Of a DNA stretch of 33,797 bases, positions 22,295 to 25,011 are shown piece by piece. A model generated the notes under the pieces. That model was not told the DNA's origin. It did no database searches and saw only the letters and a program-made list of their open reading frames with translations. Made by a program: the position numbers and the translations under genes. The stretch lies in contig JAJZAR010000003.1 in the NCBI GenBank assembly GCA_021799315.1, positions 1 through 33,797 of the forward strand, read 5' to 3'. This stretch comes from Thermoplasmata archaeon (GTDB lineage: Archaea > Thermoplasmatota > Thermoplasmata > Thermoplasmatales > Thermoplasmataceae). The first letter of the stretch is position 1, and the number at the start of each line of letters is the position of its first letter.

Positions 22295-22538
22295 TCTATT
22301 TTAAAAATATTTTCTAACCATAAACTTTTAAATTTAACAAAACTAGCAAATTAACAGATTTTGATCTTTTATAATGTTTATGACTAATTAGATTTAAGAA
22401 TAAAACCCTGGAATTATGTACATCCTGAAACAATCATAGAAATGAAAAAGAACGATGGATAATGCATGCATACTCACTGTCAGAGTTATTGTATGTCTCA
22501 GACTTTTGACATAAATATGCCGATTCATGATCACATCT
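22295..22538. other. Intergenic stretch, nothing recognised
   Basis: This stretch is AT-rich and lies between the DUF3494 terminator and the left edge of the decayed TnpB element. I see no coding frame, RNA gene or clear repeat. Confidence 0.5.
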
Positions 22539-22548
22539 TCCACTTAGA
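22539..22548. repeat. Direct repeat, right flank of the decayed TnpB element
   Basis: TCCACTTAGA matches the copy at 22888-22897 exactly. It lies 4 bp outside the right-end palindrome. Confidence 0.65.
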
Positions 22549-22568
22549 CTTTGTCAAACACTCGTTGA

Positions 22569-22805
22569 TATTCGACTTCCTGCCATCTGCTCTGCATCTT
22601 TTGACTGCTTCACAGCTTCATTTGGCAGGCCTTCATGGGATCGGTTCAGCCATGTCCGACCCCTGCCTGCAATGTTTATGCAGGCATTTACGTCTCGATC
22701 TATCTCAAGACAACATGAATCACACCTCAGTATTCTGCCATGCCCTATTCGGGTCAGAGACCCACATGCCGAGCATTCTTTACTGGTGTTTACCTTTGCT
22801 TTTCC
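22569..22805 (-). pseudogene. tnpB: tnpB 3' fragment
   Basis: The minus strand aligns with the last 80 or so codons of the TnpB at 23711, including the second Cys pair region, the DRDVNACINI-like RuvC-III segment and the end of the gene. Base changes (for example AAGACA in place of CGTGAG-type codons and altered Cys codons) and loss of the rest of the gene make it non-functional. The plus-strand open frame over this area is only its shadow. Confidence 0.7.
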
Positions 22806-22887
22806 TGTTGGCTCTATTTCAGTGTGAAATAACTTGCAATATATAAGCTTGAGTATGGCAAAAAATCAACTAAGAATTGACTTCCTC

Positions 22888-22897
22888 TCCACTTAGA
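22888..22897. repeat. Direct repeat, left flank of the decayed TnpB element
   Basis: TCCACTTAGA is the exact second copy of 22539-22548. Six bases separate it from the left-end palindrome. Confidence 0.65.
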
Positions 22898-23042
22898 AAA
22901 GCAGTTCTATGCTGCCGACTTTTTCCGTGCTCAGCGACCCTGTTAGAATAAGCACTTTGGAGCAGGCAGTTTCTGAACCACCTCTGATATTCACACTCTA
23001 AGACTATTAAGATTAAATGTAGAGGAAAGATACAGATTCTAG

Positions 23043-23694: not shown

Positions 23695-23705
23695 CTTATG
23701 TTCGA
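23695..23705. repeat. Direct repeat, right flank of the TnpB element
   Basis: CTTATGTTCGA matches 24946-24956 exactly. It lies 4 bp outside the right-end palindrome, and by position would supply the start of an omega-RNA guide. Confidence 0.65.
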
Positions 23706-23710
23706 CCTTG

Positions 23711-24908
23711 TCAATTATTCGTTGATATTTGACTTCCTGCCTTCTGCTCCACATCTTTTGACTGTTTCACAACTTCAATTGGCAGGCCTTTAACGGATCG
23801 TTTCAGCCATGTCCGACCCCTGCCTGCAATGTTTATGCAGGCATTTACGTCTCGATCTATCTCACGACCACATGAATCACACTTCAACATTCTATCGTGC
23901 TCTATTCGGGTCAGTGACCCACATGCCGAGCATTCCTTGCTTGTGTTCATTGTTTCTTCTCTTGTGAGTTCCAGGACAGGCAGTCCTTCCCAGTCAGCTT
24001 TGTAAGTGATCTGGGATGCAAGCATGCCATAGGGAAATGCATTCTTTAGCAGAAATCTGTAATTGGTTCCTCTTCTATCCCCTTTCTTTGTGATATTAAT
24101 GAGACCCTTGATATTTTCAAGAACAATCATCTCTTTGTTCTTCACAGCATCCTTAACAATAGCTTTGCTTGTTTCGTGGATAATCTGCATTGTTCTGTTT
24201 CTTTCTCGCTTTCCGTACTTTAATGCAATCTTTTTCTGTATCCTTCTGTCGTTTCTGTGGAAACGTGATTTCTTTTTTCTGTAACGTTGCTTGATCTCCA
24301 CGACCTCTGACAGATCATGGACTTCATGATGATCCTCATTACCAACGGTTGCATTTCTCAAGTTACGATCAACACCAACTGTAGTGGTGCATTCCATAGA
24401 ATCGACCTCTCTCCCAATTACGAGAGAGTGTGTATGCCGACAAGGTAAAGGAATGCACTTTCACCGTTGGTATTGAGTTTCGCACATATGCATTCAACGG
24501 GATCGATTCGTATACGCGTTTGGCTATGGGGATCATGAGTTTACTATTTTCTATCTTAAAACCGTAATATGTGGATAGCATGGGCTTTTCCACATGGGGC
24601 ATGGTTGCCTTCTGTTTTTTCTTCAATTTCTTTCTGTATGTTTTCACAAGTGCAACTGCTTTGTTGATGGCTTCAGGACAATAGTACGAAGGCATGTTAT
24701 AATCTGTAAGCTTATGGTAAATCTCCTTGGATACAGAATTTCTTGATGTGAGATTCTTCTCAATCATAAGGGTGATTGTAAGATTTACCATTTCGGTGAA
24801 CTTATGCATTAATGTGATCAGATCGTGAGTGGGAGTGAAATGCTGTTTTACAGCCTTGAATGCATACACAATCAGATATATTTTTATGATAAATAAATCT
24901 ACTCTCAT
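23711..24908 (-). pseudogene. tnpB: TnpB RNA-guided nuclease, frameshifted
   Basis: TnpB is the nuclease ancestor of Cas12, guided by RNA from the element's right end. Two minus-strand frames make up one protein of about 400 residues. The first (24908 to 24369) has the N-terminal helical part, with YYCPEAINKAVALVKTYRKK. The second (24397 to 23711) has the RuvC core: TTVGVDRNLRNATVG (first Asp), MIVLENIKGL (Glu), the zinc finger CSACGS and CDSCGR, and DRDVNACINIAGRGR (last Asp). The catalytic residues are all kept. The frames match best if joined at the short CT repeat (CTCTCTC, minus strand, about 24421-24429), where a two-base gain would restore LSLVIGREVDS. Loss of frame disables TnpB unless slippage or a sequence error is involved. 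Confidence 0.85.
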
Positions 24909-24945
24909 GCAAAGGGCGGAGAAATCAACTATGAATTGACACCCT

Positions 24946-24956
24946 CTTATGTTCGA
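24946..24956. repeat. Direct repeat, left flank of the TnpB element
   Basis: CTTATGTTCGA is the exact second copy of 23695-23705. Five bases separate it from the left-end palindrome. Confidence 0.65.
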
Positions 24957-25011
24957 AAGTTATATATTGTAATCAAAAATACAGGTATTATCACTACAAA
25001 GACTGATTATT

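Follow-up and report, generated by a model that had tools for sequence, protein, structure and literature searches.

A short tnpB-derived element with DDE-transposon ends and a predicted omega-RNA scaffold in a Thermoplasmata archaeon

TnpB nucleases are thought to aid the persistence of transposons by cutting vacated sites, and they have been described together with transposases that make no target duplication, those of IS200/IS605 and IS607. In the TnpB-omegaRNA (reRNA) system of the IS200/IS605 element ISDra2, TnpB has RuvC-type residues and a zinc ribbon, the guide RNA begins at the tnpB 3′ end and crosses the right end into the flanking DNA, a TAM lies beside the left end, and cutting of the donor site is modelled to restore the element (PMC8612924). 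All these features have counterparts in the locus described here. However, it belongs to elements with terminal inverted repeats (TIRs) and target-site duplications (TSDs) that are apparently moved by a DDE transposase, the candidate TAM lies outside an 8-bp duplication, and a short form without tnpB exists. The PATEs of Haloquadratum resemble this short form in being transposase-free, core-deleted tnpB derivatives that multiply in an archaeon, but they lack TIRs and target duplications, shrink to 52 bp in their extreme forms, and have not been described with an intact omega-RNA (PMC3119063). IS607 elements likewise have neither TIRs nor duplications (PMC6188088).

Boundaries and copies of the short element

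The DNA stretch analyzed here (the window; 33,797 nt) is contig C190 of G000, a MAG of 1.67 Mb that is 72% complete; among named genomes, its nearest relatives are Thermoplasmatales/Thermoplasmatota MAGs. A preliminary description, made from the sequence alone, had placed a shrunken TnpB element at 22539–22897. These coordinates are those of the outermost bases in a pair of 10-nt direct repeats, TCCACTTAGA (22539–22548 and 22888–22897), which bracket the element, whereas the element proper spans 22547–22887 (Table 1). The repeat is longer than the 8-nt TSD because the short element itself begins with GA. Its ends had been called palindromic, which implies the subterminal hairpins typical of IS200/IS605, but they turned out to be imperfect TIRs of about 23 bp with exact 8-bp TSDs.

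Table 1. Positions of the features of the short element and of the neighboring full-length tnpB element in the window.
Feature	Position	Strand	Basis
Short tnpB-derived element (putative omega-RNA-only MITE), 341 bp	22547..22887	-	TIRs and exact 8-bp TSD; copies at 92%
8-bp TSD TCCACTTA, right-end side	22539..22546	.	Exact repeat
8-bp TSD TCCACTTA, left-end side	22888..22895	.	Exact repeat
Right-end TIR, GACTTTGTCAAACACTCGTTGAT on +	22547..22569	-	Imperfect inverted repeat
Left-end TIR, GAGGAAGTCAATTCTTAGTTGAT on -	22865..22887	-	Imperfect inverted repeat
Remnant of the tnpB coding sequence, 3′ part (TnpB residues 300–385)	22560..22817	-	
TATA-like box CTTATATATTG in left end, possible archaeal promoter	22837..22847	-	Read from the sequence
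Predicted omega-RNA scaffold of 133 nt, extending up to the right end	22547..22679	-	28/28 pairs; covariation; model R1 152.3 bits, E 3e-42
Predicted guide TAAGTGGAAGATGTGATCAT, first 8 nt = TSD	22527..22546	-	Analogy with the reRNA of TnpB
Candidate TAM (TTTC on -), directly outside left-end TSD	22896..22899	-	TTTY 15/15 tnpB-type vs 8/26 others
Full-length tnpB element, same family, tnpB frameshifted	23704..24946	-	TSD TTATGTTC at 23696–23703 and 24947–24954; PF07282 1.2e-18
Predicted omega-RNA scaffold of full-length copy	23704..23836	-	Model R1 146.4 bits; 26/28 pairs
Candidate TAM (TTTC on -) of full-length copy	24955..24958	-	

The terminal consensus of the family is GA(C/G)NNTGTCAA-N6-GTTGAT. 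The pattern TGTCAAN6GTTGAT has 15 exact occurrences in the genome, and 33 with at most one mismatch, compared with five for the reversed control. We assembled 41 complete, TSD-flanked elements from loci in 77 genomes of this taxonomic family. Among 71 TIR pairs that had not been selected for a TSD, 30 had an exact 8-mer repeat five bases outside the TGTCAA motif, whereas exact 8-mer repeats at other offsets numbered 0.019 on average, with none at other symmetric offsets. The fixed offset of these repeats therefore identifies 22547–22887, with the TSD TCCACTTA, as the mobile unit, and a chance direct repeat was rejected on the same comparison.

As the preliminary description had stated, the upstream part of tnpB is deleted: TnpB residues 1 to about 300 are gone, residues 300–385 alone remain, and the last 133 nt are kept. 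Two further copies, both 92% identical, are present in the same genome (C151:10236–10580 and C42:803–1124). All three share the deletion junction and the inner left segment at unrelated insertion sites, which excludes chance as the origin of the shrunken form. A TSD was found for two of the three copies; the left terminus of the C42 copy is missing. About 55–60 nt inside the left end match only C151 and C42, and no full-length tnpB element containing this stretch was found. This left-end segment, with its TATA-like CTTATATATTG, may have been captured as a promoter of the RNA.

The same 3′ end was kept by independent deletion derivatives in two other genomes, namely, two elements of 595 bp in G061 and elements of 483, 362, and 359 bp in G043. 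The two shortest (G043_362 and G043_359) have lost the zinc-ribbon codons but retain the last ~130 nt. Given the shared-junction copies and these independent derivatives, the short form is, on sequence comparison, a proliferating family that arose by separate deletions in G000, G061, and G043. The term relic, used previously for the short element, is thus too weak, because the form has multiplied.

Shared ends and a DDE-type transposase

The same ends with 8-bp TSDs are common to full-length tnpB elements, the short elements, MITEs of about 150 bp, and insertion sequences (IS) that encode a DDE transposase. The full-length tnpB elements (1.24–1.42 kb) carry tnpB as their sole gene. The DDE IS, with a length of about 1.27 kb and the same TIRs and 8-bp TSDs, encodes a protein of 398–399 aa with invariant residues D170, D229, and E363, a C-x-F-H motif, and an IS1/IS1595-type zinc ribbon; a low-confidence structural model (mean pLDDT 47) predicts an RNase H-like core resembling retroviral integrase. 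Ends of the GACATTGTCAA...GTTGAT type with 8-bp TSDs, as in the autonomous DDE IS, were found at the loci L130, L131, L133, and L139. Against NCBIfam ISH6, transposases of this group scored 35.2 and 39.2 bits, far below the cut-off of 240, and therefore lie outside the curated ISH6 family. Judged by its motifs, the transposase is a member of the DDE superfamily, weakly ISH6-like; its catalytic motifs resemble those of MULE/IS256.

Because the ends and the 8-bp TSD are shared with the DDE IS, the tnpB elements and the short elements are probably mobilized in trans by this transposase. Mobilization in trans had been envisaged for the short form beforehand, and it agrees with the presence of the element at three sites in G000 (n = 3) without a transposase gene of its own and with the occurrence in the genus of DDE IS that have the same TIR and 8-bp TSD. 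G000 itself contains an interrupted transposase copy (C15) and a second one that runs off the contig end (C176). The long copy on C15 (L020) is interrupted by an ORF with an rve domain (IS3-like). In the complete genome G061, no relatives of the transposase were detectable, though TSD-flanked tnpB elements are present; the enzyme there has therefore been lost or is a different one.

Neither the short nor the full tnpB elements encode a Y1 HUH transposase. It is extremely improbable that the short element is a relic of IS200/IS605 (IS1341/PATE) mobilized by a Y1 transposase. The similarity of its TnpB and a potential for near-terminal hairpins would fit such an origin, and PATEs are known in archaea as core-deleted IS605-type elements, but exact 8-bp duplications and true TIRs are both lacking in IS605-type elements (PMC3119063), and the DDE-transposase IS is bounded by the same TIRs. 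An IS200/IS605 or PATE origin was therefore rejected on the TSD and the TIRs at both termini.

Several further observations concern related elements. G009 contains many MITEs of about 154 bp (L140, L142, L143, L186, L188, L191–L193, L195, L197, and L198) with the same TIR and 8-bp TSD and without an omega-RNA scaffold. G078, from a different taxonomic family within the order, has related tnpB copies (L326, L337, L344, and L348) with different terminal repeats (TAGAAATCCT...); here tnpB may have switched transposon ends a second time. G023 contains diverged omega-RNA scaffolds (L383, L392, and L398) without a detected full TnpB. One of these (L383) resembles an internally deleted element of 703 bp that is flanked by TTTT and has an 8-bp TSD (ATACAATC) and terminal repeats of another kind. 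In the genome collection, Micrarchaeota and Nitrososphaeraceae contain homologues that are more distant and lack these TIRs. No relatives were found on viral contigs and plasmids, and phages yielded just a distant bicaudavirus TnpB (25%).

TnpB, the predicted omega-RNA scaffold, and the candidate TAM

A full-length element of the same family lies 0.8 kb from the short element in the window, and the two share the right end, also with the copy on C96. Its tnpB is frameshifted into two overlapping ORFs (23711–24397 and 24369–24908). The search for an intact TnpB elsewhere in the genome, proposed at the outset, was successful: C96 encodes one of 386 aa. TnpB of this family has invariant RuvC-type residues D168, E252, and D341 and the cysteines C314/C317/C331/C334. 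PF07282 matches were obtained for the window tnpB copy and its relatives, and scores against NCBIfam guided_TnpB (89–91 bits) are slightly under the cut-off of 100. Two tnpB copies of G061 (L320 and L122) have a common left flank, CTTTTC-AATCTAGG, and differ further out; L320 lacks a matching TSD, so recombination or gene conversion between insertion sites is possible.

From 25 distinct 3′ ends we derived a consensus structure of five helices with 28 pairs. Standard pairing occupies 92.7% of the pair cells, compared with at most 49% when the partners are slid, and 25 cells are compensatory, compared with 6.3 in shuffles (0/500). For example, the long helix GCCUGCC/GGCAGG is changed to CCCGCC/GGCGGG in G043 and altered again in G081. 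This predicted structured RNA at the 3′ end of tnpB reaches the right end of the element, as in TnpB-omegaRNA (OMEGA) systems. In full elements, the structure overlaps the coding sequence, so that its conservation there is shared with that of the protein, and the short copies with a broken frame are cleaner evidence. The reading frame is broken by a frameshift in C151 and by an in-frame stop in C42, and both G043_362 and G043_359 are out of frame; yet 28/28 consensus pairs are kept in C151, 26/28 in C42, and 25/28 in each of the two G043 elements. Across the short copies of the family, the number ranges from 24 to 28. The prediction that the omega-RNA region survives in the window copy was borne out, and disruption of the scaffold by substitutions, which would have counted against it, was not found, all 28 pairs being intact. 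The covariance-model search that had been suggested gave a higher score for this copy than for the adjacent tnpB copy, and its 134-nt fold has a predicted energy of −39.8 kcal/mol (z −2.6). In G061, the model returned 18 scaffold matches vs three full-length intact tnpB genes found; the weaker matches may be decayed elements. An Rfam scan of the window returned rRNA and tRNA only.

The guide had been expected in the right-end flank. This is where it is predicted to lie, but it begins TAAGTGGAAG; the leading TC read previously are the last two bases of the element, whose boundary with the flank is ...GACAAAGTC/TAAGTGGA. Since TnpB guides begin in the right-end flank, whose first bases here are the TSD, the predicted guide opens with the duplicated bases, and the TAM is expected outside the left TSD. 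At this position, all 15 complete tnpB-type elements first found have TTT[T/C], compared with 8 of 26 other elements (p = 9e-6) and a background of 2.2%. At the mirror position beside the right end, the counts are 1/15 and, for transposase IS and MITEs, 7/26. When the C96 element (with TTTY) and a G081 short element (without) are included, the fraction becomes 16/17 (p = 3.4e-5); for short elements alone it is 7/7 in the family (p = 0.0015) and 7/8 with G081. The two exceptions, both G081 short elements, belong to another family, and TTTY also adjoins seven further tnpB left ends that lack a matching TSD. These tests count every insertion as independent and set MITE orientation by a simple sequence rule; copies deleted in place inherit their site, so that the independent short insertions are fewer than counted.

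TTTY might reflect only a target preference of the transposase, the tnpB-type ends orienting the T run leftward with no role of TnpB. We consider this unlikely, though it accounts for part of the signal: transposase-only elements and MITEs have TTTY beside about 30% of their TSDs on each side, compared with the 2% background, so T-rich targets are preferred anyway. However, among tnpB-type elements of the family, TTTY is sharp, present in every one, confined to one side, and located exactly at the TAM position, whereas tnpA elements with nearly identical TIRs have it in 1/6 cases on the left and 3/6 on the right. By this orientation-specific signature, TTTY is a candidate TAM, and the pattern suggests selection for copies that happen to adjoin TTTY, which would secure the TAM.

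Within three mismatches, TTTY plus the guide has no second match in G000; the sole match is the element's own flank. A guide aimed at another locus was rejected for this reason. TldR-type exaptation of TnpB is known, and the element is located upstream of a gene that resembles OMP decarboxylase (pyrF, judged by sequence), as would suit the silencing or tuning of a host gene by its RNA together with a TnpB-like protein, or a residual peptide with a role of its own. A host function of this kind is nevertheless very improbable, considering the unique match to the own flank, the broken frames of the sister copies, and the intact catalytic residues of TnpB.

In a further reading, the short element is an ordinary passive MITE, an internally deleted tnpB element moved by the transposase, with an incidental 3′ end and an RNA that is not used. 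The scaffold-free MITEs of about 150 bp in the family multiply well, which shows that movement does not require the scaffold, and among the three G000 short copies substitutions in the scaffold compared with the upstream part (15/130 vs 22/128, p = 0.22) deviate in the expected direction but not significantly. Still, a passive MITE appears rather doubtful to us, because the full scaffold was kept by derivatives in three genomes, its pairs are intact where the frame is broken, the window scaffold outscores that of the neighboring tnpB copy, and TTTY adjoins 7/7 short elements vs 8/26 others. The anatomy of the short element, that is, the intact scaffold, the TAM-like TTTY in the correct place, and the intact TnpB on C96, instead argues for a guide RNA that would serve a TnpB supplied elsewhere, as the preliminary description had suggested.

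Proposed cycle and comparison with known systems

We therefore favor, as the probable explanation, an omega-RNA-only MITE that derives from a TnpB-carrying DDE-type element and uses both TnpB and the transposase in trans. The boundaries, TSD, TIRs, copies, covarying scaffold, and orientation-specific TTTY, as well as the presence in the clade of intact genes for TnpB and the transposase, are read directly from the genomes, while transcription of the short element, loading of TnpB in trans, cutting, and repair are steps that we infer, those after transcription being modelled on ISDra2 (PMC8612924). The DDE transposase of the related IS would recognize the ends of the short element and insert it with an 8-bp duplication, with some preference for T-rich flanks. 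Transcription of the minus strand would run across the scaffold and past the right end, giving an RNA whose guide consists of the TSD and the right flank. An intact element at another locus, for example that on C96, would provide TnpB, which would load this RNA and cut the element-free site, either after excision or on the sister chromosome, where TTTC lies directly 5′ of a full match (predicted target TTTC-TAAGTGGAAGATGTGATC). Repair from the filled copy would restore the short element. In the filled site, just the 8 bp of the TSD follow the left TAM before the mismatch, and the element should therefore be spared. Copies with TTTY in the left flank would be those that can be defended. No empty site was found in the genus, in which the intergenic sequence is not conserved.

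More broadly, TnpB may, in this archaeal family, have moved outside IS200/IS605-IS607 onto DDE elements, with omega-RNA-only mini-elements parasitizing both enzymes in trans and retaining their insertions by means of TnpB cuts at TTTY sites. This would amount to a natural counterpart of a split gene drive with repeated origins (G000, G061, and G043); we see the case for and against this wider reading as evenly balanced. The same nuclease logic would then operate on a DDE transposon with 8-bp duplications, raising the question of how the TAM is secured if the transposase does not target it. Scaffold-bearing and scaffold-free MITEs coexist in one family, so that a possible drive by TnpB in trans can be examined by comparing them directly. 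The family also yields compact archaeal TnpBs (~390 aa), for which both a TAM prediction and an RNA model are available.

Like classical MITEs, the short elements are multicopy, lack a transposase, and have the TIRs and TSD of an autonomous IS, but they carry in addition a conserved RNA scaffold that is expected to recruit a second trans factor. IS of the ISH6, IS256, and MULE types share with the autonomous element the 8-bp TSD, the TIRs, the D-D-E and C-x-F-H motifs, and a weak NCBIfam ISH6 match, although the transposase scores only 35–39 bits of the 240 demanded for ISH6. To our knowledge, tnpB hitchhikers have not been recorded for these insertion sequences. In eukaryotic DDE transposons, Fanzor is likewise a TnpB homologue traveling as a passenger of TIR/TSD elements, with 8-bp TSDs in IS4-type elements and, in the CRe element, TSDs downstream of TTTT (PMC3627910, PMC10711439). 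In contrast, Fanzors are eukaryotic or viral, the CRe case being tied to a Helitron2, whereas the elements described here are archaeal and include an omega-RNA-only derivative; they parallel, in prokaryotes, the Fanzors carried by DDE transposons. The literature that we covered, incompletely and hence as weak evidence, contained no account of TnpB on a prokaryotic DDE/TIR element. Thus, TnpB-omegaRNA, MITEs, and DDE IS are all known kinds, and what appears to be new is the presence of TnpB and its omega-RNA-only derivatives on an archaeal DDE element with TIRs and TSDs.
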